Assembly: GCF_000785535.1 (NCBI RefSeq)
Contig: NZ_CP007595.1
Location: 186,001 to 250,000, forward strand
Length of the DNA: 64,000 nt
Reading direction: 5' to 3'
DNA from: Arthrobacter sp. PAMC 25486
GTDB taxonomy: Bacteria > Actinomycetota > Actinomycetes > Actinomycetales > Micrococcaceae
A program made the translations under genes and the position numbers. Below the pieces are notes generated by a model. The model was given only the letters and a program-made list of their open reading frames with translations, was not told the DNA's origin and searched no databases. Positions 40,083 through 55,698 of this stretch are shown here, in pieces. Every line of letters starts with the position of its first letter. Position 1 is the first letter of the stretch.

Positions 40083-40282
40083 GATGGCCTCCTTCATTAG
40101 TTCCTGTACTTTATACAACCACCTCCCGGGGCACTTCCTTCCATGGAGCGGGGGACTTTCGCTAACCGCGTATCCGTCTGGGCCCGCAGCTGACCGCGGC
40201 CGCGCGTTGCCAGCTTTTGGCCCGGGAACCGTTAACCTAGGTAGTGACCGGCCGACCAAAACCTGCAAGGAGTATGTCCACA

Positions 40283-42394
40283 GTGGCACGCGAGAGTTCC
40301 AATTACAGTGCACGCCACCTCTCTGTGCTCGAGGGGTTGGAAGCCGTCCGGAAACGGCCCGGCATGTATATTGGCTCCACAGATTCCCGCGGGCTCATGC
40401 ACTGCCTCTGGGAAATCATTGACAACTCGGTGGATGAGGCGCTGGCCGGCTTCGGTCAGAACATCACGGTGATCCTGCACAAGGACAATTCCGTCGAAGT
40501 GCACGACGACGGTCGCGGAATTCCGGTGGATGTGGAACCCAAGACGGGGCTCACCGGTGTTGAGGTTGTGCTCACCAAGTTGCATGCCGGCGGTAAGTTT
40601 GGCGGTAGTTCCTATGCGGCCTCGGGTGGTCTCCATGGTGTGGGGGCCAGTGTGGTGAATGCGCTGTCGGCGCGCATGGACGCCCAAGTTGACCGGGGCG
40701 GCAAGACCTATCAGATGAGCTTCCGCCGCGGCGAGCCCGGCCACTTCAAGGACACCGGCAAGACGCTGAGCCCGGACGTCACGTTTGAACCATTTACTGA
40801 GAAGTCCGTTCTTGACATTGTCGGCACCACCAAGCGCGGCGTCACGGGAACCCGCATCAGGTACTGGGCTGACCGGCAAATCTTCACCGCGGACGCCAAA
40901 TTCTCCTACGACGAGCTGGTGGGCCGGGCCCGGCAGACCTCATTCCTGGTTCCGGGCCTGAAAATCAGGGTTGTCGATGAACGCCGGCTGGCCGGGACAC
41001 CGGGCGAATTCGCCACGCACGAGGAGGTGTTCCACCACGACGGCGGCCTGTCGGAGTTTGTTGACTTCCTCTCCGTTGGGGGAGCGGTGACGGATATTTG
41101 GCGCTTGCAGGGCCACAGCACGTTCACCGAAACGGTGCCTGTGCTGAACCAGGAAGGGCACCTGGAGAGCACCGCCGTCGAACGCGATTGCGAGGTGGAC
41201 ATTGCGTTGCGCTGGGGGGTTGGCTACGACACCACCATGCGCAGCTTCGTGAACATTATTGCCACGCCCAAGGGCGGCCGGCACCAGGAAGGTTTTGAGC
41301 AGGCGCTCCTAAAGACGTTCCGCAAGGTCATCGAAGCGAACGCGCGCAAGCTCAAGGCCGGCAACGACAAAATTGAGAAGGACGATGTCATGGCGGGCCT
41401 GACAGCCGTGCTGACCGTCCGCCTGGCGGAACCGCAGTTTGAGGGGCAGACCAAGGAAATCCTTGGCACACCGGCCGTGAAAAACATCGTGGCGAAGGTT
41501 GTCGAGAAGGAACTCAAGGCAAAGCTGGAATCAACGCAGCGCAATGAGAAGGCGCAGTCGGCCCAGTTGCTGGAAAAAGTTGTGTCCGAGATGAAGTCGC
41601 GCATCTCCGCCCGGGTGCACAAGGAAACCCAACGGCGCAAGAACGCGCTGGAAAGCTCCTCCCTGCCCACCAAGCTGGCGGACTGCCGCAGCAACGATGT
41701 GGCCAAGAGTGAACTCTTCATTGTGGAAGGTGACAGCGCACTGGGCACCGCCAAAATGGCCCGCTCCTCCGACTTCCAGGCGCTGCTGCCCATCCGCGGC
41801 AAGATCCTGAACGTGCAAAAGGCGTCGGTGGGCGACATGCTGGCCAACGCCGAATGCGCCGCCCTGATCCAGGTGGTCGGCGCCGGCTCCGGCCGCAGCT
41901 TTGACCTTGACTCCGCCCGCTACGGAAAGGTCATCCTCATGACCGATGCCGACGTGGATGGCGCACACATCCGCACCCTGCTGCTGACCCTGTTCTTCCG
42001 TTATATGCGCCCCATGATCGACGCCGGTAACGTCTATGCGGCCGTCCCGCCACTGCACCGGGTGGAGATCATCCACTCCGGTTCCAAGGCCAATGAGATG
42101 GTGTACACGTACTCCGAGAAAGAGTTGCACACACTCCTGGCCAAGCTGGACAAGGCGGGCAAGAAGCACAAGAGCCCCATCCAGCGCTATAAGGGCCTGG
42201 GGGAAATGGATGCCGACCAGCTGGCGGAAACCACCATGGACCCCCGCCACCGGACGCTGCGTCGGGTGACAAGTGCCGACGCCGACCGTGCCGAGCACAC
42301 CTTCGAACTGCTCATGGGATCCGATGTGGCACCCCGCAAGGAATTCATTGTGGCCGGCAGCGAGAACCTGGACCAGGACCGCATCGACGCCTGA
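40283..42394 (+). CDS. parE: Type IIA topoisomerase subunit B (topoisomerase IV ParE; GyrB paralogue)
   Basis: The ATPase subunit of a type IIA topoisomerase. The start is GTG 40283 (GGAG 10 nt upstream, 703 residues) or ATG 40274. The GHKL ATPase carries 'EIIDNSVDEALAG', 'HDDGRGIPV', 'LHAGGKFGGSSYAASGGLHG' and the invariant Lys near 'IATPKGGRHQEGFE'. The TOPRIM domain is 'ELFIVEGDSALGTAKMARSS', then 'KVILMTDADVDGAHIRTLLL', ending 'PIQRYKGLGEMDADQL'. It lies near sigA, where Arthrobacter keeps parE, and pairs with parC at 53056; gyrB proper would be near dnaA. The GyrB or ParE label is inferred from this position. Confidence 0.92.
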   Translation: MARESSNYSARHLSVLEGLEAVRKRPGMYIGSTDSRGLMHCLWEIIDNSVDEALAGFGQNITVILHKDNSVEVHDDGRGIPVDVEPKTGLTGVEVVLTKLHAGGKFGGSSYAASGGLHGVGASVVNALSARMDAQVDRGGKTYQMSFRRGEPGHFKDTGKTLSPDVTFEPFTEKSVLDIVGTTKRGVTGTRIRYWADRQIFTADAKFSYDELVGRARQTSFLVPGLKIRVVDERRLAGTPGEFATHEEVFHHDGGLSEFVDFLSVGGAVTDIWRLQGHSTFTETVPVLNQEGHLESTAVERDCEVDIALRWGVGYDTTMRSFVNIIATPKGGRHQEGFEQALLKTFRKVIEANARKLKAGNDKIEKDDVMAGLTAVLTVRLAEPQFEGQTKEILGTPAVKNIVAKVVEKELKAKLESTQRNEKAQSAQLLEKVVSEMKSRISARVHKETQRRKNALESSSLPTKLADCRSNDVAKSELFIVEGDSALGTAKMARSSDFQALLPIRGKILNVQKASVGDMLANAECAALIQVVGAGSGRSFDLDSARYGKVILMTDADVDGAHIRTLLLTLFFRYMRPMIDAGNVYAAVPPLHRVEIIHSGSKANEMVYTYSEKELHTLLAKLDKAGKKHKSPIQRYKGLGEMDADQLAETTMDPRHRTLRRVTSADADRAEHTFELLMGSDVAPRKEFIVAGSENLDQDRIDA

Positions 42395-42480: not shown

Positions 42481-43431
42481 TCAGGGGAAGAAGCCGGGGA
42501 CCAGCAACAGGGCCGTCGGAATTGCCAGCAGCAGCAATGCCCCCGCAATGACGAGCAGCTGGATCCCTGGGGCCAGTGCCGGGGCGGGTGTCAGTAGTTT
42601 GCCGAGCCTGGCCGATGTGGTGGTGGGCGTATCAATCTGGGCCGCGTTGTCCGCCATGAGTGTGTCGGCAGGTAACTGGGCGGAGCCGCTGGCCACCAAG
42701 GCGATGGCGGTGACCAAGGTGGGTTTGTCCACCGAACGCAAGGCCACGTCGTCGGCCATTATTTCAATGAGGGACGACACCGCCTGCTGGGCAAGTTTCG
42801 AGGTGGGCAGCCAGGGTAGCGCCGAACGCCAGGCGGCAAACGCCCACAGCAGCAGATGGTGGCGCTGGGCCAGGTGGGTCTGTTCGTGCAGCAGGACGGC
42901 GCGCAACTCGTCGGGGGAGAGCAATTTCAGCAGCCCCTCTGAGAGCACCGTGACGGAGCGTGAACCGCCTGGCAAACAATAAGCAACGGGCGCCTGATGA
43001 TCGATGACGAGGGTGTCTGGCCGGTCGTGGGAGGGTGAGCTAAGCAGCTGCAGCAGGTCTCGATGGCGGCGCCGCTGGCGCTGGATGCGGAAGTAGGTCA
43101 GCCACAGCGTGAACACCAGGTGGGCCGAAAGTAGGGCTGCTGCGCTCAGCGCGAAGGCATGCAATACGCCCAAAGTGTCAAGGGATTCCCGGCCCAGAAA
43201 GACCCGGAGCAGGCCCCGCAGCCCGCTGGGCAAATTTTCACCCAAGGGGACCAGACCGTAGCAAAGCATCGCGCCGATCATGGACAGCCCACCGGCGAGG
43301 GCGATGGACTGCCACAGCACCATGGCAGCAAAAGGCGCCCGGGCGGGCCATGCTGCACGGGACAGGAATACGGGAACCGGCCACGCCAAAACCACGGCCA
43401 GTGCGGCAAGGAACCAAGAGGTCCAAAACAT
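42481..43431 (-). CDS. M56-family membrane metalloprotease (BlaR1-like)
   Basis: A 316-residue membrane protein. Helices lie at about 4-24, 33-58 and 85-113, and a last one at about 291-312. The zinc protease site 'LRAVLLHEQTHLAQRHHLLL' (HExxH) is near residue 183, and the third ligand Glu is in 'SSLIEIMADDVALRSV'. It lacks the penicillin-binding sensor domain of true BlaR1, so the signal is unknown. It is cotranscribed with blaI upstream, the usual arrangement in which the protease relieves BlaI repression, as in Rv1845c-Rv1846c. Confidence 0.88.
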   Translation of the reverse strand: MFWTSWFLAALAVVLAWPVPVFLSRAAWPARAPFAAMVLWQSIALAGGLSMIGAMLCYGLVPLGENLPSGLRGLLRVFLGRESLDTLGVLHAFALSAAALLSAHLVFTLWLTYFRIQRQRRRHRDLLQLLSSPSHDRPDTLVIDHQAPVAYCLPGGSRSVTVLSEGLLKLLSPDELRAVLLHEQTHLAQRHHLLLWAFAAWRSALPWLPTSKLAQQAVSSLIEIMADDVALRSVDKPTLVTAIALVASGSAQLPADTLMADNAAQIDTPTTTSARLGKLLTPAPALAPGIQLLVIAGALLLLAIPTALLLVPGFFP

Positions 43432-43502: not shown

Positions 43503-43877
43503 TTAGGAATGTCCCAACAGGTTGCGCAGGGTTTCCGCTTCGCCGGCACTGACGGTGCCAATGAACCGGGCCAAAACAGCCTCACGGTCGGGCGCGGATC
43601 CCAGAACTTCCATCATGAGTTCCGCCGTGTGCTCTTCGCGGCTCGTGACGGCCCGGTAGCGGTGCGGGCGTGAAGCGCGTTCGCGCTCAACCAGGCCCTT
43701 TTTTTCCAGCCGGGACAGCACCGTCAGCACTGTGGTGACTGCCAGCGGACGGGCCTCGGCCTCCACTTCTGCGGGGCGCTGCGAGAGCAGGTCGCGCAGG
43801 ACGTTGGCCGTGATGGCCTCCTGGTGCGCCCACAGGAGGTCCATGACAGCTCTTTCCAATTCTCCAAGCGTTGCCAT
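43503..43877 (-). CDS. blaI: BlaI/MecI-family transcriptional repressor
   Basis: The ATG at 43875-43877 with GAGGAATTTT upstream gives 124 residues (MATLGELERAVMDLLWAHQE). The winged helix is 'ITANVLRDLLSQRP', 'LAVTTVLTVLSRLEKKGLVE' and 'RASRPHRYRAVTSREEHTAE', and the C-terminal dimerisation helices follow (EAVLARFIGTVSAGEAETLR). BlaI proteins bind TACA-type palindromes as dimers. Two such palindromes lie between this gene and cydA. The downstream M56 protease probably controls it. Confidence 0.93.
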   Translation of the reverse strand: MATLGELERAVMDLLWAHQEAITANVLRDLLSQRPAEVEAEARPLAVTTVLTVLSRLEKKGLVERERASRPHRYRAVTSREEHTAELMMEVLGSAPDREAVLARFIGTVSAGEAETLRNLLGHS

Positions 43878-43955
43878 AAAATTCCTCTGTTTCACTGCGG
43901 GCACCAAAAGTTTGAGAGTACGCCAATTGCGCGCACTCCACCAAATGTACAGCTT

Positions 43956-44009
43956 TTGACAGCAATGTTCTACACAGGGTAGAAATAGTATGTTCTACAA
44001 CATGTAGAA
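43956..44009. promoter_or_regulatory. cydA promoter with two BlaI-like palindromic operators
   Basis: A plus-strand promoter TTGACA (43956-43961) and TAGAAA (43980-43985) with an 18-nt spacer faces cydA. TTCTACA-CAG-GGTAGAA (43968-43984, one mismatch) covers the spacer and -10. TTCTACA-ACA-TGTAGAA (43993-44009, perfect) covers the presumed start point. Their centres are 25 bp apart. Both match the BlaI-type TACAnnnTGTA pattern and also lie upstream of blaI, so autoregulation is likely. Confidence 0.7.
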
Positions 44010-44052
44010 GTTGCGCATGAGCCTGATAATTTTCGTGGATGAGGGGTAACTG

Positions 44053-45639
44053 GTGGAAGCACTGGACATTGCCAGGTGGCAATTTGGAATAGTAACGGTG
44101 TACCACTTCCTGATGGTGCCACTCACCATTGGTCTGGGCACATTGGTGGCGATTCTGCAGACGCGATGGCACAAGACCGGCAACGAGGCCTATCTGCGCA
44201 TGACGAAGTTCTGGGGCAAGCTGTTCCTGATCAACTTCATCATGGGCGTGGCGACGGGCATCGTCCAGGAGTTCCAGTTTGGGATGGCGTGGAGCGAATA
44301 CAGCCGCTTCGTCGGTGACGTCTTCGGTGCGCCGCTGGCCATGGAAGCCCTGCTGGCCTTCTTCGTTGAGTCAACGTTCCTGGGTCTGTGGATCTTCGGT
44401 TGGAAGAAGCTCCCCGCCAGGATTCACCTCGCCTGCCTGTGGATCGCCGTGGCCGGATCCATTGTCTCGGCCTACTTCATCCTCGTGGCCAACTCGTGGA
44501 TGCAGCACCCCGTGGGCGTGGAAATGTTGGACGGACGCCCCGTCATGGTTGACGCCTGGGCCGTCTTTACCAACAACACGGCTCTTGTGGCCTTCTTCCA
44601 CACCATCGCCGGCGCACTCGCCGTGGCCGGCGGATTCCTGCTGGGCATCGCCTGGTACCAGCTGTGGCGCCGCCGCAAGGACGGCATCGACACCGTGGAC
44701 GCCAAGGGACGCGTCATCATCGGCGAATCCGCCACCATCCCGGGGCGGAGCAAGTTGGACCACTCCGTCTGGATCAAGTCGCTGCGCCTCGGCGCGGTTG
44801 TCGCCATGATCGCCTTTGCTGGATCAGCCGTGTCCGGCGACTTGTCGGGCAAGCTTATGTTTGAGCAGCAGCCCATGAAGATGGCCGCCGCCGAGGCCGC
44901 CTGCCATGACGGCACCGGCTTCTCCATCCTGTCTGTCGGGGATCTCGGCAGCCGCGACTGCTCCGACGTCGTGGCCGTCATGGAAGTCCCGGGCCTGCTC
45001 TCCTTCCTGGCGCACAACGACTTCACCACCGAGATCAAGGGCGTCAACACCCTCATTCCCGAGTATCAGGAAAAGTACGGCAAGTACCTCCCGGATGATC
45101 CCATGTACGGCTCGCGCGCCGGCCAGGAAATCAACTATGTCCCGATCATGCCTGTCACTTACTGGGGCTTCCGCATGATGATCGGCTTCGGCGGCCTCGC
45201 CGCTGCGGCCGCCGCCGTGGCACTGTGGCTGACCCGCAAGGGCACCGTGCCGCGCTCCAAGGGCCTCATGCGCCTTGCACTCATCGGCATCCTGGCACCC
45301 TTTGGCGCCAACGCGGCCGGCTGGATCTTCACCGAGATGGGCCGCCAGCCGTTCGTCGTGGCGCCCAATCCGGCCATGAGCGGCATTGACCAGGTCTTCA
45401 TGTTCACGGCCGCCGCGGTCTCACCCGGCGTCTCAGCCGGCGAGGTGATCTTCTCGCTAGTGGCGCTGACCACCGTGTACGCCGTGCTGCTCGTGGTGGA
45501 GGTGGTCCTGCTGACCAAATACATCCGTGGCGGCGTGGTCTCAGCCATGCCCGAGCTGGACCAGACGAAAAAGAAGGACGACGGCGAAAACGGCCCGGGC
45601 GGGGAGGCGGACGACGATGTACTCGCGTTTGCGTACTGA
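44053..45639 (+). CDS. cydA: Cytochrome bd ubiquinol oxidase subunit I
   Basis: The haem-bearing subunit of cytochrome bd, a high-affinity quinol oxidase of the cytoplasmic membrane. A GTG start follows GAGGGGTAACTG; 528 residues with about nine helices. Haem and catalytic landmarks are His18 in 'GIVTVYHFLMVPLTIG', 'RFVGDVFGAPLAMEALLAFF', 'NNTALVAFFHTIAGALAVAG' with the second His, and 'WIFTEMGRQPFVV'. The Q-loop is short, as in actinobacterial and Gram-positive enzymes. The C-terminus is acidic. It is first in cydA-cydB-cydDC. Confidence 0.97.
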   Translation: MEALDIARWQFGIVTVYHFLMVPLTIGLGTLVAILQTRWHKTGNEAYLRMTKFWGKLFLINFIMGVATGIVQEFQFGMAWSEYSRFVGDVFGAPLAMEALLAFFVESTFLGLWIFGWKKLPARIHLACLWIAVAGSIVSAYFILVANSWMQHPVGVEMLDGRPVMVDAWAVFTNNTALVAFFHTIAGALAVAGGFLLGIAWYQLWRRRKDGIDTVDAKGRVIIGESATIPGRSKLDHSVWIKSLRLGAVVAMIAFAGSAVSGDLSGKLMFEQQPMKMAAAEAACHDGTGFSILSVGDLGSRDCSDVVAVMEVPGLLSFLAHNDFTTEIKGVNTLIPEYQEKYGKYLPDDPMYGSRAGQEINYVPIMPVTYWGFRMMIGFGGLAAAAAAVALWLTRKGTVPRSKGLMRLALIGILAPFGANAAGWIFTEMGRQPFVVAPNPAMSGIDQVFMFTAAAVSPGVSAGEVIFSLVALTTVYAVLLVVEVVLLTKYIRGGVVSAMPELDQTKKKDDGENGPGGEADDDVLAFAY

Positions 45640-45726
45640 TGACCCGCACCTCGAGCGCCTTCCCCTCCCGCCTTTCCCAGGCACTGCCAACCTCCCCGAC
45701 CCGCTGCTGAAGCAAGAGGATTGATG

Positions 45727-46791
45727 ATGGATTTTCTGCCTACTTTATGGTTCATACTGATTGCCGTGCTGTGGATCGGCTACCTGTTTCTCGAGGGCTT
45801 CGACCTCGGCGTCGGCATGCTCATGAAGACGTTCGCCCGCGGCGAGAAGGAACGCCGCGTCCTGCTCAACACCGTGGGTCCGGTGTGGGACGGCAACGAG
45901 GTGTGGCTGCTGACCGCTGGCGGCGCCACGTTCGCCGCGTTCCCTTTCTGGTATGCCTCGCTGTTCTCCGCGCTCTACATCCCGCTGGTCCTCGTGCTCC
46001 TGGGCCTCATCTTCCGTGCCGTAGCCTTTGAATACCGTGGCAAGGTGCACCACGACACCTGGCGCACGGTCTGGGACTGGGCCATCGCCCTAGGCTCCTT
46101 CACAGCCGCCTTCGGCATTGGCGCCATGCTCGCCCTGACCACCACCGGCCTGCCGCTGAACGAGAACGGTGACCGCGTGGGCGGCCCCTTCGCCTGGTTC
46201 AGCTGGTACGCAGTGGTCGGCGGGCTCGCCATTGTGGGCTTTGCCTTCATCCACGCCGCAGCTTTTGTGGCCCTGAAGACCGACGGCGACATCCGCCACC
46301 GCGCCCGCCGCTTGGTCGGGCGGTGGTTGCCCGTGGGACTGGCGCCCATGGCTGTGTGGGCCATCGCCGTGGCCCTGCAGCACGGCAAGTGGTTCAGCTG
46401 GCTGCTGATCGCCGTCGCCGTCGCTGCCGCCGCGGCCTCCTGGATTGCCAACAAGGCGGACCGTGAAGGCTTCAGCTTCCTGGCCATGGGCGTCTTCCTG
46501 TTGGCCGGTGCCGCAGCGATCTTCAGTGCCGTCTACCCCGTGGTGCTGCCCTCAACACTGGATCCGCTGTGGAACCTGACAGTTGAAAACGCCTCATCCT
46601 CCAGCTACACCCTGGGCCTGATGTCCATTGTGGCAGCTGTTGGTGTACCGCTGGTCCTGGCCTACCAGGCGTGGACGTACTGGATCTTCCGCAAGCGCAT
46701 CAGTGTGGCGCACCTGCCGGAACCGCACGACTTTGCCCCCGCCGTCGGAAATGGTTCGGCGGAGCAGGCAACAGCAGGAAGCAGGCACTAA
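45727..46791 (+). CDS. cydB: Cytochrome bd ubiquinol oxidase subunit II
   Basis: Second subunit of the bd oxidase. The start is ATG 45727 with GAGGA 6 nt upstream (MDFLPTLWFILIAVLWIGYL), 354 residues. 'LEGFDLGVGMLMKTFARGEK' and 'VWDGNEVWLLTAGGATFAAF' are the family signatures, and about eight hydrophobic helices follow. The stop lies one base before the cydDC start, implying coupled translation. Confidence 0.97.
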   Translation: MDFLPTLWFILIAVLWIGYLFLEGFDLGVGMLMKTFARGEKERRVLLNTVGPVWDGNEVWLLTAGGATFAAFPFWYASLFSALYIPLVLVLLGLIFRAVAFEYRGKVHHDTWRTVWDWAIALGSFTAAFGIGAMLALTTTGLPLNENGDRVGGPFAWFSWYAVVGGLAIVGFAFIHAAAFVALKTDGDIRHRARRLVGRWLPVGLAPMAVWAIAVALQHGKWFSWLLIAVAVAAAAASWIANKADREGFSFLAMGVFLLAGAAAIFSAVYPVVLPSTLDPLWNLTVENASSSSYTLGLMSIVAAVGVPLVLAYQAWTYWIFRKRISVAHLPEPHDFAPAVGNGSAEQATAGSRH

Positions 46792-46792
46792 C

Positions 46793-49700
46793 ATGAAGCC
46801 CACACTCCCTCCCGGCAACTCCACCAAGCTGGCCTTGGCTGGCCTGGCCGGGCTGGCCGCCCTCAAGGCCGTTGGCCTGGTCCTCGCCCTCGGCGCGCTG
46901 GCCCACGCCCTGAGCCAATGGGCCGGCGGCGGCGCCCTGGACGGCACCAAGTTGCTGGTGCAGGGGTGTGTGGGCGCATTCCTGCTTGCCGCGGCCGTGT
47001 GGGGGCAGTCGATCCTGGCCCGCCGCGCCGCACTCGGTGCCAAGGAAGAACTGCGCGCCAAACTGGTGGCCCACCGCCTCGACCCGCGCAACGGCGGGCA
47101 GGGCGGGGCCGTCGGCGCCGAAGCCATGCTCGCGAGCCGTGGGCTCGATGGCCTCGACAACTACTTCGCCACCTACGTTCCGGCACTCGTCGGCTGCGCC
47201 GTGCTGCCCCTGGCGCTCGGGCTCCAGATCCTCATGTCCGACTGGGTCAGTGCCCTGATCGTGGCGCTCACGCTGCCGCTGGTGCCGGTGTTCATGATCC
47301 TGATCGGCCACCACACACAGGAACGCGTTGAGGAAGCCGCCAGCGGATTGGACCGTCTCTCCAACCACCTCCTGGAACTGGCCCGCGGACTGCCCGTCCT
47401 GGTGGGCTTGCGCCGCGCCTCCGCCCAGCGCAAGGCCCTGGCCGACGTGTGCGAGGCCTACCGCAAATCCACCATGGCCACCCTGCGCACCGCGTTCCTG
47501 TCCTCCATGGCCCTGGAACTCATCAGCACCATCTCCGTTGCGGTCGTGGCCGTGTTCATCGGCGTCCGGCTCGTGGCCGGAGACATGCCGCTGGAAGCCG
47601 GGCTGCTGGCGCTCATGCTGGCCCCCGAGTGCTTCAAGCCGCTGCGTGACCTGGGCGCCGCCCACCACGGCAGCGAGGACGGTGTGGAGGCCCTGCGCCG
47701 CGCCACTGACATTCTCGACGGCGGATCCCCCTCCCAACCGGCCGCACCGGCCGCTGTGGGAACTGTCGGCGCCGCTGGTGCTACTGGTGCCCTGGGTGCG
47801 GCGGGTGCCGTGGGAACCTCTGGAACGACGGCCCAGGTCGGCACATTTGCAACGCAGCGCGCTGCGAACACTGTCGGCTCCGGCGCCGTGTTTGAGGCCT
47901 CGGACTTCAGCGTCCGCTACCACGGACGGACGGAGCCGGCAATCTCCGGGTTCACCGCAGCCCTGGCCCCAGGTGAGGCGCTCGTGCTGGCCACAGCCAG
48001 CGGCACCGGAAAGTCAACCATCCTGGCCGCACTGGCCGGGATCCTGCCCGCTGCCGGTGACGGGGCTGCCGCTGTGGGAGGGCACCTGGCTGTGCGAAAT
48101 TCCGCTGCCGTGGTGTTTGTCTCCCAGCACCCGGTCTTCACCGAAGACACAGTTTCGGAAGAGGTAGTACTTTACGCCGCCGGCCCGGGGCGGCTCGCTG
48201 TTGACGATGCAGCCGTCGTCAACGCACTCGCGGCAGTCAACGCCGCACACCTGGCCCAGCGTGACGTGGTGGATTGCAGCCCCGGCGAGCTGCGCCGCGT
48301 GGCAGTAGCCCGCGCCCTGGCCCGCATCGCCGTGGACCCCGCCGTGGAGCTGGCGCTCTTTGACGAACCCACAGCCCACCTTGACCCCGTCTCGGCGCAG
48401 GCCGTTCGGCATCAGCTGGCGGCGCTGCGGGGGAGCGTGGCCGTGGTGGTGGCAACCCACGATCCGATCCTGGCTCAGCTGCTTGGCGGCGCACAGCACA
48501 CCGACGCCCGGCACGCTGCTGCTCCCGGTGTGTCCTTGGAAGCGGCGCTTGATGGATTCCCGGCCGCCGCGGGCCATATAGCCACGGTGCCGGGACTTGA
48601 AACCTTCGGGCCCGGTCAACAAGCCACGCTGCCCGAACCCGCCCGGTTCAGGTGGCGCCACCTGCGCCAGCTGCCCCTGCGTTCGCCCCGGTTTGCCGCC
48701 GGTGTGCTGGTCTCTGCCCTGGCCACGCTCAGCGCCGCGGCCCTTTCCGGCATCTCCGGCTGGCTCATCGTGTGGGCTGCCGCGCAGCCGCCCATCCTGT
48801 ACCTGCTGACCCTGATTGTGGGCGTGCGCGCCTTCGGGATCGGCCGTTCCGTCTTGCGCTATTCCGAGCGCCTGCTGACCCACGACGCCGTGTTCCGCTG
48901 GGCCGCCGAACTGCGCCTGAGGCTCTGGGACTCGTTGGGTTCCTCGGTGGTGCACTGGGGTCGGCTGACCCGCTCCGGAGGCGCGCTGGGCACCTTGGTG
49001 GCCGACGTTGACGAGCTGCGTGACGCCGTTCCCCGCGTCGTGGTCCCCATCCCGTCCGCCCTCATCTCTTACGGTGCCGTGCTGCTGACGGTGTTCCTGT
49101 TGGTGCCGGAAGCCACCGGCATTGTCCTGTTGCTCGGTGCCCTGGCCCTGCTGCTCCTGCCCATGCTTGTGCTGGCAGCCCAGCGCCGCGCTTCTGCGGC
49201 AGCGGCCGTCCACAGGGTATGGCTTGCCGGACGTGTGACCACCTTGTTTGCTGCGGCCGGACAGCTGGCAGCCAACGGGGTGGGTGCCAACGAGGCAGCC
49301 CGTTTCAGCCGAACGGACGCCACCATCGCGAAGCCGCTGCGCCGCCTGGCCTGGGCCGACGGCTTGGGCCAGGGTGCGGTCGCCCTGCTCACCTCGCTGG
49401 CCGCCGTGGCCGCTGCCTCGGTGGCCATCGCCGCCGGGGTTGACCCCCGCGCCGCCGCCGTTGCGGCACTGCTCATGCTCGCGCTGGCCGAACCCCTGGG
49501 CATGTACATCGAGGCCGTCAGTGCCCTTCCGGCTCTAGTCACCTTGATGAACAGGACGCTTCCCTTGCTCGATGCCCCTGCCACAGTCCAGGAAGCCGTG
49601 GAGGAGGCAGTGGACCCGGCCGTGGAGGAACCGGTCGACGGCCTTGCCGTCCACGGCATCACCGCCCGCTACCCCTCCGCTGCCCGGCCCGTCTTCACCA

Positions 49701-50305
49701 GGCTCAGCGGCGGTGTGCAGCGCGGACACTGGTGGAGCGTCAGCGGCCCGTCAGGCTCCGGAAAGTCCACGCTGCTGGCCGTCCTGCTCGGCTTCCTGAA
49801 ACCCGAGGCCGGCAGCTACGTGCTAAACGGCGCGCCCGCCACGGCAGCCACGCTGGGCCGGATCGCATGGTGCCCGCAGGACGCCTACTTGTTCAATTCC
49901 ACGCTGCGGGCGAACCTGTCCCTAGCCCGCCCGGCGTCCACCCCTCCGACTGAAGCCGAGCTGGCGCAGGCCCTGGAAACCGTGGGTCTCGGCCCCTGGC
50001 TGGCGGAACTGCCGCTGGGACTGGACACGCGCGTGGGGCCCGGCGGGCACCACCTCTCCGGCGGGCAGCGCACCAGGGTGTCGGTGGCCCGCACGCTCGT
50101 GGCGGGGGCCGACGTCGTGCTGCTCGATGAGCCAACAGCGCACCTTGGTCAGGACGAATCGCTCGCCCTCATCGACGACCTCCGGCAGGCCCTCTCCGGC
50201 GCCGCAGTGGTTTTGGTGACGCACGACGGCGAACTTGCCCAACGTGCCGACTCTCACCTGTCGCTGGGGCAGGGTGCGCTCGAAACAGCGGGCATGGGCG
50301 CTTAA
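46793..50305 (+). CDS. cydDC: Fused CydD-CydC ABC exporter (thiol exporter for cytochrome bd assembly)
   Basis: The ATG at 46793, one base after the cydB stop, gives a 1170-residue fusion of two half-transporters. The first half has a membrane domain, then Walker A 'ATASGTGKSTILAALAG', signature 'CSPGELRRVAVARALARI' and Walker B 'LALFDEPTAHLDP'. The second half has a membrane domain, Walker A 'GPSGSGKSTLLAVLLG', signature 'LSGGQRTRVSVARTL' and Walker B 'VVLLDEPTAHL'. The first signature is degenerate (SPGEL), so one ATP site may be weak. A Gly/Ala linker region lies before the first ATPase domain. In E. coli CydD and CydC are separate and export cysteine/glutathione for bd assembly. Confidence 0.95.
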   Translation: MKPTLPPGNSTKLALAGLAGLAALKAVGLVLALGALAHALSQWAGGGALDGTKLLVQGCVGAFLLAAAVWGQSILARRAALGAKEELRAKLVAHRLDPRNGGQGGAVGAEAMLASRGLDGLDNYFATYVPALVGCAVLPLALGLQILMSDWVSALIVALTLPLVPVFMILIGHHTQERVEEAASGLDRLSNHLLELARGLPVLVGLRRASAQRKALADVCEAYRKSTMATLRTAFLSSMALELISTISVAVVAVFIGVRLVAGDMPLEAGLLALMLAPECFKPLRDLGAAHHGSEDGVEALRRATDILDGGSPSQPAAPAAVGTVGAAGATGALGAAGAVGTSGTTAQVGTFATQRAANTVGSGAVFEASDFSVRYHGRTEPAISGFTAALAPGEALVLATASGTGKSTILAALAGILPAAGDGAAAVGGHLAVRNSAAVVFVSQHPVFTEDTVSEEVVLYAAGPGRLAVDDAAVVNALAAVNAAHLAQRDVVDCSPGELRRVAVARALARIAVDPAVELALFDEPTAHLDPVSAQAVRHQLAALRGSVAVVVATHDPILAQLLGGAQHTDARHAAAPGVSLEAALDGFPAAAGHIATVPGLETFGPGQQATLPEPARFRWRHLRQLPLRSPRFAAGVLVSALATLSAAALSGISGWLIVWAAAQPPILYLLTLIVGVRAFGIGRSVLRYSERLLTHDAVFRWAAELRLRLWDSLGSSVVHWGRLTRSGGALGTLVADVDELRDAVPRVVVPIPSALISYGAVLLTVFLLVPEATGIVLLLGALALLLLPMLVLAAQRRASAAAAVHRVWLAGRVTTLFAAAGQLAANGVGANEAARFSRTDATIAKPLRRLAWADGLGQGAVALLTSLAAVAAASVAIAAGVDPRAAAVAALLMLALAEPLGMYIEAVSALPALVTLMNRTLPLLDAPATVQEAVEEAVDPAVEEPVDGLAVHGITARYPSAARPVFTRLSGGVQRGHWWSVSGPSGSGKSTLLAVLLGFLKPEAGSYVLNGAPATAATLGRIAWCPQDAYLFNSTLRANLSLARPASTPPTEAELAQALETVGLGPWLAELPLGLDTRVGPGGHHLSGGQRTRVSVARTLVAGADVVLLDEPTAHLGQDESLALIDDLRQALSGAAVVLVTHDGELAQRADSHLSLGQGALETAGMGA

Positions 50306-53055: not shown

Positions 53056-55698
53056 CTATTCCAGGGGCAGCTCGAACGCTTCCTGGGTGGAGTCCGGAAT
53101 TGGCTTCGGGTCACGGGTCGGAGCCGGCGGCACGTGTCCCGTGGTGGGACCGTCCCCGGCGGAAGGTGCCGAATCGGCGGCCGGTGGGCGGCCGGCGTCG
53201 GACATTTCAGGGGAAGGGCCGGACAAGCTGGGACCCACGAGCTCGATGCCAGCCGTCAGCGCAACACCGGAGCCGTCCCGGTGTCCATGCTCCAGGGGAA
53301 GCGCCCGCACCACGCCTGAACTGGAGGACGCCTTGGCCGGGCCGTGGCCCGCCCAGGCGACCATCAGGTGGTCCTCACCCTTGAGGAAGCGGTGCGCGCG
53401 GACCCCGCCGGTGGCGCGGCCCTTCGCCGGGTACTCGGAGAGGGCGGTGACCTTGGCCGAGCCCGACGGCGTTCCGGGCAGTGCATCCTGCCCACCGGAA
53501 ACCGTCACGACCACGGCCTGCGGATCAGTGGGGGAGACCACGCTGAAGGAGAGGACGGTGTCCCCGGCCGCCAGCTTGATGCCGGCCATGCCACCGGCCG
53601 TGCGGCCCTGTGGGCGGACGTTGGCGGCACTGTACCGGAGCAGCTGGGCGCCCTGCGTGATGAACACGAGGTCGTCGTCGTCCGTGGCAATCGCGGCACC
53701 CACCACAAAGTCCTTGGGCTTCAGCGCGATGTACTCCCAGTCGTCCCGGTTCAGCGGGTAGTCGGGGCTGACACGCTTGACGACGCCCGCGGCCGTGCCC
53801 ACCGCAAACGTGGTGTTGAGCGGGACAAAGCCCACGAGCGTTTCGCCCTTGGTCAAGGTGATGAAGTCCTTCGCGGCCACACCTCCTGCCAGGTTCGGCA
53901 GGGCTGCCGTAGGCGGCAGGACAGGCATGTCCACGACCTGCATGCGCAGCATCCGGCCCAGCGACGTCAGCGCACCGATCTCGGCCCGGGCCGTTGACTT
54001 CAGGACGGTGGAGAACACGTCGTGCTTGCTGCGGCTGCCCGATTCCAGCAGCGGATCGGCCGTGGAAGTCCGGGCGATCTGGCCCGTGGCGCTGAGCAGC
54101 ACCCAGCAGGGATCGTCGGCGATTTCCAGGGCCAACGGGGCGGCCCTGCCGGGCTTCCCGCCGGGCCCGGCCGCGAGGGCCTTCGCCACGGACGGGGCCA
54201 TGGCCTCGGATTCCAGCAGCACGGTGCGGCGCGGCGTGGCGTATTTGGCGGCCACCTCACCCATCTCATCCGAGACGAGCTGGCGGAGCAGTTCCTGCGA
54301 GCCGAGAATGGCTTCGAGCGCGGAAATTTCACGGCGCAGCTCGTCCCGCTCGGTTTCCAGCTCCACCATGGAGAAGCGGGTCAGCCGGCGCAGCTGCAGG
54401 TCAAGGATGTAGTTGGTCTGAATCTCGGAGAGGTCGTAAATGGCCATGAGCCGCTCACGGGCGGCCGCCACCTCGTCCGAGGTCCGGATGATCTGGATGA
54501 CCTCGTCAATGTCCACGATGGCGATGAGCATGCCCTCAACCAGGTGCAGTCGGTCCTGCTTCTTGCCGAGGCGGAACGCGGTGCGGCGGCGCACCACGTC
54601 GATGCGGTGGTTGACGAAGACCTGCAGCAGCGGCAGCAGGCCCAGTGTTTGCGGCTGCCCGTCCACGAGGCAGACGTTGTTGATACCGAAGGATTCCTCC
54701 AGCGGCGTGTACCGGTACAGCTGTTCCATGACGGCGGCCGGGTTGAAGCCGTTCTTGATCTCAATGACGAGGCGCAGCCCGTGCTTGCGGTCCGAGAGGT
54801 CGATGAAGTCGGCAACACCCACCACCTTGTTGGCGTTGCGGGCGTCCTTGAGTTTCTCCTTCACCTTCTCCGGGCCCACCAGGTACGGCAGTTCCGTGAC
54901 GACCAGGCCCACCCGGCGCGGGGAAAGTTGTTCGACGGCGATCTTGGCCCGCGTCTTGAATGATCCCCTGCCGCCGGCGTAGGCGTCGCGGATGCCCTGC
55001 AGGCCCACAATGCGCCCGCCCGAGGGCAGGTCCGGACCCGGGACATACGCCATGACGTCTTCGAGCGTTGCATCGGGGTTCGCGATCAGGTGTTGGGCGG
55101 CGGCAATCACCTCACCCAGGTTGTGCGGGGCCATGTTGGTGGCCATGCCGACGGCGATGCCGCTGGCCCCGTTGACGAGCAGGTTCGGGTAGGCGGCCGG
55201 GAGCACCGACGGCTGCAGCATCTGGTTGTCATAGTTGGGCACAAAGTCCACAACGTTCTCATCCAGGCTGCCCGTCAGCTCCAGGGCGGCGGCGGCCAGC
55301 CGGGCCTCGGTGTAGCGGGGGGCGGCGGGGCCGTCGTCGAGCGAGCCGAAGTTGCCGTGCCCGTCAATGAGCGGCAGGCGCAGCGTCCAGTCCTGGGCCA
55401 TGCGCACCATGGTGTCGTAGATGGCGGTGTCGCCGTGCGGGTGCAGCTTTCCCATGACCTCACCCACCACGCGGGCGCTCTTGACGTGGCCCCTGTCCGG
55501 GCGCAGCCCCATCTCGCTCATCATGTACAGGATGCGCCGCTGCACCGGCTTGAGCCCGTCCCGTGCATCAGGGAGGGCGCGCGAGTAAATCACCGAATAG
55601 GCGTACTCCAGGAAGGAGCCTTCCATTTCAGTCGAAACATCAATATCGACGATGTTTTCGGTGAAGTCATCTGCGGCGGGAGGTTGGCGCTTGGCCAT
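53056..55698 (-). CDS. parC: Type IIA topoisomerase subunit A (topoisomerase IV ParC; GyrA paralogue)
   Basis: The DNA-cleaving subunit that partners ParE. 880 residues. The winged-helix/tower region carries '[20 protein letters not shown]' and the quinolone-region '[20 protein letters not shown]', with Thr where E. coli GyrA has Ser83. The active-site Tyr lies in the '[13 protein letters not shown]'-type segment, read here as '[20 protein letters not shown]'. The beta-propeller C-terminal domain follows ([20 protein letters not shown], '[20 protein letters not shown]'), with a disordered acidic tail. It is on the opposite strand 10.7 kb from parE. Confidence 0.93.

Follow-up and report, generated by a model that had tools for sequence, protein, structure and literature searches.

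Conserved dyads suggest that a BlaI-family repressor controls cytochrome bd and heme-respiration genes in Arthrobacter and its relatives

The BlaI family is known for switching on penicillin resistance. What, then, does such a regulator do in Arthrobacter sp. PAMC 25486, where its gene and that of a membrane protease lie divergently from cydA-cydB-cydDC? This gene order, proposed in a sequence-only reading of the locus, is borne out by profile matches. We consider it very likely that BlaI represses cyd and heme-respiration genes through the dyads listed below, and that the paired protease relieves this repression. The features of the locus, in coordinates of the window (the whole stretch of 64,000 nucleotides that was analysed), are:

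42481-43431, minus strand: membrane metalloprotease (M48/M56 type) paired with blaI; 316 aa, HExxH motif
43503-43877, minus strand: blaI, winged-helix repressor of 124 aa, cysteine-free (PF03965, 3.1e-21)
43956-43985, plus strand: candidate cydA promoter, read by eye; TTGACA (43956-43961), 18 nt, TAGAAA (43980-43985)
43968-43984: dyad 1, an exact match to TTCTAC-n5-GTAGAA that would overlap the candidate -10 of cydA; proposed BlaI operator
43993-44009: dyad 2, spaced 25 bp from dyad 1; at the candidate cydA start point, likewise a proposed BlaI operator
44053-45639, plus strand: cydA, cytochrome bd oxidase subunit I (PF01654, 2.8e-149)
45721-46791, plus strand: cydB, cytochrome bd oxidase subunit II (PF02322, 4.3e-100; TIGR00203 over cut-off)
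46796-50305, plus strand: cydD-cydC, one fused reading frame (TIGR02857 and TIGR02868 both over cut-off)

The blaI product carries a Penicillinase_R winged-helix domain: it scores 76.3 bits against PF03965, hence over the cut-off of 22.6, and aligns to the solved chain 2g9w (5.6e-18). It is the single PF03965 match in the whole genome. In the cydD-cydC frame, TIGR02857 spans residues 12-561 and TIGR02868 residues 623-1144. The paired protein had been labelled an M56 protease; it is indeed an HExxH membrane protease, but its match to PF05569 (4e-5) falls under the curated cut-off, and it is PF01435 (M48, 3e-10) that exceeds its own. Residues H182, E183 and H186 are invariant in all 22 aligned proteins, and a homologue lies near blaI in every locus checked (103, 45 and 24 in overlapping sets). 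Pfam finds no penicillin-sensing domain in this protein of 316 aa, which ends after its last hydrophobic stretch; its AlphaFold model (mean pLDDT 54) was too poor for use.

The interval between the blaI ATG and the cydA GTG measures 175 bp, rather than the 176 bp given earlier, and contains both palindromes as claimed. Their type needed revision: against the 7-bp arms first proposed (TTCTACA-n3-TGTAGAA), dyad 2 (TTCTACAACATGTAGAA) is perfect and dyad 1 (TTCTACACAGGGTAGAA) departs at one position, and the core that is conserved is TTCTAC-n5-GTAGAA. Exact copies of this core occur at only these two places in the window, and four times in the 4.59-Mb genome, versus once for the reversed pattern. 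When up to three mismatches were allowed, shuffled windows contained 0.48 matches on average and at least two in 9 of 100 cases; the dyad count of the window alone is therefore only mildly unusual. Neither palindromes that could arise by chance nor conservation of the locus by itself was accepted as proof. With the candidate promoter placed as above, dyad 1 would lie over the -10 and dyad 2 would begin at the start point, so the geometry of the earlier reading holds on a promoter read by eye, but a consensus scan for sigma-70 sites called none in the blaI-cydA gap. The TTGACA is kept at equal distance in only 11 of 80 intergenic regions (the window and 79 relatives).

The sequence-only reading would have been refuted if relatives sharing this gene order did not keep the palindromes, but they do keep them. 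Two or three exact copies are present in all 79 relatives examined with divergent blaI and cydA, and the two nearest cydA are spaced 23-26 bp apart in 80 of 80 rows. This set comprises the window and 79 of 80 loci; the retrieved DNA of the remaining one (L108) was without cydA, and weak cydA matches of 28-35% were left out of the counts. More distant relatives show a third dyad nearer blaI. The divergent arrangement is also found outside the family, in 21 of 22 loci examined from elsewhere in the order. These data bear on whether BlaI merely autoregulates its own operon, with cydA exposed to the dyads by its divergent position. The gap is common to both genes, and in several families both share a single dyad, as such an explanation would have it. 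Against it, 61 of the 80 rows have a further dyad nearer blaI while the pair remains near cydA. Moreover, in one genome (G160) blaI is solitary with its own dyad, and cydA is found on two other contigs, remote from blaI, each time with a tandem pair; the cydA dyads are thus retained even without a neighbouring blaI. Since sites are also present at hemQ, hmp and other genes in many genera, we regard simple autoregulation as very improbable.

The dyad indeed marks a wider set of genes: hmp, hemQ, hemA/hemE, cytochrome maturation, oxidase assembly and copper genes, and ATP synthase. The circuit between BlaI and cyd suggested earlier is supported, and it reaches more genes than was claimed. Across 26 fully listed genomes we counted 128 exact sites, of which 49 belong to cydA/blaI and 39 to further genes of heme metabolism or respiration (88 of 128 together), with 40 elsewhere; these off-theme sites, 15 of them at genes of no nameable class, count against the proposal. 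An exact site is found at hemQ in 13 of 26 sampled genera and at hmp in 10 of 26. In the host genome, the exact dyads beyond cydA precede hmp and a gene for a small membrane protein, and copies with a single mismatch precede hemQ, the ATP synthase operon, a sufR-like/ABC locus and a copC locus. There are five such one-mismatch sites in all, and three of them (hemQ, ATP synthase, sufR-like/ABC) are at loci with exact sites in other genera. For the fourth, the copC locus, a proposed exact-site counterpart in other genera was dropped, the first gene of L367 not being found related to cluster c66. The number of one-mismatch sites in the host genome shows no enrichment (9, exact ones included, versus 16 for the control), and their counts were not used as proof.

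The distribution of the dyad follows that of BlaI. Within the family (197 genomes), it is present in 168 of 169 genomes with BlaI versus 3 of 28 without. Outside the family, elsewhere in the order, the corresponding values are 12 of 39 and 0 of 71; the absence of the exact dyad from the other 27 BlaI-bearing genomes counts against the proposal. In the host genus (23 genomes) there are 94 sites, versus 19 for the reversed control. Both in the 80-row set and in 10 of the 12 dyad-bearing genomes of the order outside the family, a dyad with BlaI-like spacing sits upstream of blaI itself. In all 59 rows that could be typed (10 could not), the recognition-helix residue agrees with the operator type; we dropped this covariation as proof, because it amounts to one event on the tree.

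Could the dyads instead serve a different regulator, with the Rrf2-type NsrR encoded beside hmp as the main candidate and BlaI a bystander near cydA? NO would be a sensible signal for both hmp and cydA, and an nsrR-like gene adjoins the hmp site in all 19 such loci of the 26 fully listed genomes. However, the sites follow BlaI presence within genera: in g6 the dyad is found in 4 of 4 genomes with BlaI versus 0 of 8 without, and in g15 in 2 of 3 versus 0 of 8. In two g6 genomes the sole site is the one between blaI and cydA, and outside the family 10 of the 12 dyad-bearing genomes have it just upstream of a blaI (within 300 bp). The dyad geometry, moreover, is that of a published BlaI operator, as described in the available part of that account (PMC8457756). 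Judged by BlaI distribution, site position and dyad geometry, control by NsrR appears quite improbable.

We thus favor a model in which BlaI itself acts at these sites, as the sequence data suggest. Dimeric BlaI would bind the tandem TTCTAC-n5-GTAGAA dyads and, at cydA, cover the candidate -10 and start point, holding the cytochrome bd operon off. Since about 90 bp separate the blaI start from the dyads, BlaI probably represses its own gene and that of the protease as well. A membrane-borne signal, presumably that respiration is impaired or the heme supply altered, would reach the protease, which, by analogy with BlaR1, may cut or otherwise inactivate BlaI. With BlaI inactivated, bd oxidase, the NO-detoxifying flavohemoglobin and heme supply would rise together. 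The role of BlaI here may therefore be the tuning of respiration, not beta-lactam resistance.

The same wiring could serve a different input, if the protease sensed stress on the cell wall or on the membrane in general and induction of cyd formed part of a response to envelope stress. Beta-lactams are the signal for classical BlaR1 proteases. In addition, BlaI of Mycobacterium tuberculosis represses blaC, with atpH and sigC also in its regulon, according to the accessible portion of the report (PMC8265638). Yet the protease here is without a penicillin-sensing domain, and most of the targets that could be named are heme, oxidase and related genes. No beta-lactamase or penicillin-binding protein was found among the target proteins scanned, nor any beside the four exact and five one-mismatch sites of the host genome. 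We judge an envelope-stress input unlikely, and the respiratory reading of the switch predicts that it is worked by respiratory inhibitors, not penicillins.

If the proposal is true, sensor-less M56-type proteases that accompany BlaI without an evident beta-lactam resistance gene gain a function, cytochrome bd acquires a regulator across a large group of soil-dwelling bacteria, and the mycobacterial link between BlaI and ATP synthase is set in a wider frame. More tentatively, and with considerable doubt, the actinobacterial BlaI/metalloprotease pair might at root be a respiration and heme switch. The sensor-less protease would monitor the condition of the respiratory membrane and destroy BlaI; bd oxidase, NO detoxification, heme synthesis, cytochrome maturation and ATP synthase would then be released at once, and the use in beta-lactam resistance would have come later, through an added penicillin-sensing domain.

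Sequence comparison matched the blaI product to a single solved chain, 2g9w, which we take to be BlaI (Rv1846c) of M. tuberculosis, whose regulon is reportedly the subject of Sala 2009. The recognition helix reads TTVMAVLQRLA in 2g9w versus TTVLTVLSRLE here. The mycobacterial BlaI-ATP synthase link, cited in the sequence-only reading, is in print (PMC5874750, PMC12565901, both available in part), and the ATP synthase operon here has a one-mismatch dyad; the published regulon differs in including blaC and sigC, with no link to cyd or hmp in the portions of those accounts available. This mycobacterial link is what is already known: a wider wiring of BlaI to cyd or heme-respiration genes was described in none of the titles and abstract openings listed by a search that covered mainly open papers. 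For BlaI_0696 of Clostridium thermocellum, DAP-seq identified GTCTAT inverted repeats 5 nt apart, with two dyads per target; spacing and number equal those here, whereas its authors interpret the targets as a beta-lactam response (PMC8457756, from the available text). HrrSA of Corynebacterium glutamicum is likewise a single regulator over heme and oxidase genes (heme synthesis, bc1-aa3, cydAB, ctaA, ctaB), but, as far as the accessible part of the report describes it, it is a two-component system that responds to heme and activates oxidase genes, without BlaI or protease (PMC7337898). The closest overall design is that of BlaI-BlaR1 and MecI-MecR1, which share with this locus a BlaI-family winged-helix repressor, an adjacent membrane metalloprotease, dyads in promoter regions and likely autoregulation; unlike those systems, the protease here has no penicillin-sensing domain, and the targets found are respiratory and heme genes.

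The candidate operator of BlaI in the window is the dyad TTCTAC-n5-GTAGAA (below, the exact site), and several lines of comparison suggest that it links this repressor to the cytochrome bd oxidase genes and to further genes of heme and respiration. The genome is a single contig of 4.59 Mb, in which cydA, cydB and a fused cydD-cydC frame are divergent from blaI and a membrane metalloprotease gene:

42481-43431, minus strand, membrane metalloprotease
43503-43877, minus strand, blaI, the sole PF03965 match in the genome
43956 (TTGACA) and 43980 (TAGAAA), 18-nt spacer, candidate cydA promoter, read by eye from the letters
43968-43984, dyad 1, within the blaI-cydA gap
43993-44009, dyad 2, within the blaI-cydA gap
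46796-50305, fused cydD-cydC, a single reading frame

The gap spans 175 bp and has a GC content of 44%, versus 63% for the window. The candidate promoter would place dyad 1 over the -10 element and dyad 2 over the start point; a promoter scan of the gap called none. The cyd region is flanked by ORFs that, from their translations alone, resemble type II topoisomerase subunits (40244-42394 and 53056-55698).

The dyads, through which the sequence-only reading had connected BlaI to cydA, are strongly conserved. Among the best 80 of 259 relatives, obtained by protein search of genome contigs, the fetched DNA shows cydA divergent from blaI in 79, and all 79, like the window, carry exact dyads. The gap holds two dyads in 19 of these 80 rows (79 loci plus the window) and three in 61, the third copy sitting closer to blaI, and the two nearest cydA are 23-26 bp apart in every row. 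TTGACA is retained at the window's distance in only 11 of the 80 rows, and thus the operator is kept better than the promoter. Nor is the neighbourhood confined to the family, since cydA is divergent from the blaI-protease pair in 21 of 22 loci outside it (among the best 30 matches fetched), and clearly so in 3 of 24 loci at class level (L412, L414 and L417). In the more distant of the loci outside the family cydA is only ~40% identical, and in one class-level locus (L408) it lies downstream. Three loci of a family outside the order (L396, L397 and L400) also carry TTCTAC-n5-GTAGAA dyads ahead of blaI, in tandem with a spacing of 19 bp; there the divergent gene is only a weak match to cydA. 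One record titled Sporosarcina beigongshangi (L042) encodes a BlaI 91% identical to the window's; the title or the sample looks wrong.

We observed that the exact site goes with BlaI at each rank sampled. BlaI is present in 23 of 23 genomes of the genus, each with 3-5 exact sites (94 in total, versus 19 for the reversed pattern). Across 197 genomes of the family, with BlaI called at E 1e-8, BlaI was found in 169 and the site in 171: both in 168, BlaI alone in one (G109), the site alone in three (G079, G162 and G175, all of genus g3, with a single site each) and neither in 25, eight of the BlaI-minus genomes being assigned by absence from the list when the tables were crossed. The association is also seen within genera, the site occurring in 4/4 BlaI-plus versus 0/8 BlaI-minus genomes of g6, and in 2/3 versus 0/8 of g15. 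Outside the family, in 110 of the 119 genomes sampled from the order, the site occurs in 12 of 39 BlaI-plus genomes (the exact motif being absent from the other 27) and in none of 71 BlaI-minus genomes; in 10 of the 12 a site lies upstream of a blaI at a distance of at most 300 bp (exceptions G288 and G295). In one genome (G160) a solitary blaI has its own dyad, and cydA lies on two other contigs, each copy with a tandem pair; all three genes were confirmed by Pfam. In distant families, most loci examined carry dyads like TAC[TG]AC-n5-GT[AC]GTA in the gap. The recognition helix residue is L or H with TTCTAC (42/42 typed rows) and M with TAC[TG]AC (17/17), 10 rows being untyped; this covariation is supportive only, because it represents one change on the tree. 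The DAP-seq motif of a clostridial BlaI, according to passages of PMC8457756, consists of inverted GTCTAT repeats five nucleotides apart, paired per target.

To list the regulon we took 26 genomes covering 24 genera and fetched every one of their 128 exact sites; a gene was counted as a target if its start fell between 200 bp before and 320 bp after a site. In these genomes, hand-picked to span genera and some with high site counts, 49 sites lie beside cydA or blaI and 39 beside further genes of heme or respiration; the other 40 lie elsewhere, 15 of them at no nameable gene class. Twelve further genomes of g1 and g10, fetched at their sites other than those of cydA, extended the set to 164 sites in 38 genomes and 26 genera. 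Across this set, hemQ has an exact site upstream of it in 13 genera, hmp in 10, and a gene for a small membrane protein that lacks a Pfam domain in eight. Targets in two or three genera are ctaC, CtaG/CopD, CopC, hemA/hemE, a sufR-like/ABC locus and, in a cytochrome c maturation operon, a histidine phosphatase or TlpA gene; ctaB, SURF1, qcrC and the ATP synthase operon are each a target in a single genus. Names such as ctaB, qcrC, hemQ and sufR were given from domain and context. Some other targets, for example universal stress proteins, Crp and a PPOX protein, are no obvious fit to this theme. The predicted regulon of g13 is expanded, with up to 15 exact sites per genome; in G034 of this genus (L226-L240) they lie at ctaB, ctaC and SURF1 and next to a gene for isocitrate lyase. 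The locus of one site that automatic assignment left without a target (L251:2508) contains three genes similar to genes of the sufR-like/ABC locus L366, so genus g20 probably shares this target.

The window's own genome has four exact sites: the pair at cydA, a third between hmp and an Rrf2 gene, and a fourth 43 bp upstream of the small membrane protein gene noted above (L010:1560-1916; 118 aa, no Pfam domain), called a high-affinity Fe2+/Pb2+ permease by some sources. Over its first ~45 codons (L345:2347-2477; about 3387146-3387276 of the contig) hmp aligns to an intact relative in three separate reading frames, which means that either its start is broken or the assembly has indels; hmp is intact in close relatives. 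Five one-mismatch sites are not above the control in number. Three are at loci with exact sites in other genera (hemQ, the ATP synthase operon, with its exact site in G030, and the sufR-like/ABC locus). Another lies at a copC locus; the gene that opens this locus is similar to a gene that has an exact site in the same genus (L339). The last of the five (L007:1501), between a small SHOCT-domain membrane protein gene and a permease gene, has no counterpart among the exact sites.

A protease homologue occurs in the fetched blaI flank of all loci checked (103, 45 and 24, in overlapping sets), up to 1.3 kb from blaI in some class-level loci, and its HExxH motif is unchanged in all 22 sequences aligned. 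Taken as M56 in the sequence-only reading, the window's protease is over the Pfam cut-off for M48 and under it for M56, and M48 is preferred. It has 316 residues, ends after its final hydrophobic stretch and has no room for a penicillin-binding domain; its predicted structure was too low in quality for use.

The most likely model, its last step proposed by analogy with BlaR1, is as follows: BlaI dimers on the tandem dyads would block cydA and, through the gap common to blaI and cydA, their own operon, until the protease is switched on by a signal from respiration or heme and would then remove BlaI. Nitric oxide is a good candidate signal, since bd oxidase tolerates NO and hmp is among the targets. 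The window's BlaI has no cysteine, which excludes a thiol switch within BlaI itself.

Among the open-access papers listed by our searches, none ties BlaI to cyd, hmp or heme genes. The link between Mycobacterium tuberculosis BlaI and ATP synthase is already published, and mycobacterial blaI has been placed in the iron (IdeR) regulon, as stated in passages among these sources (PMC5874750, PMC12565901, PMC8265638, PMC7924339). The target list obtained here is similar to the one described for HrrSA of Corynebacterium glutamicum, as far as it is set out in passages of PMC7337898, and this likeness favours the status of heme or of the oxidase as the signal.
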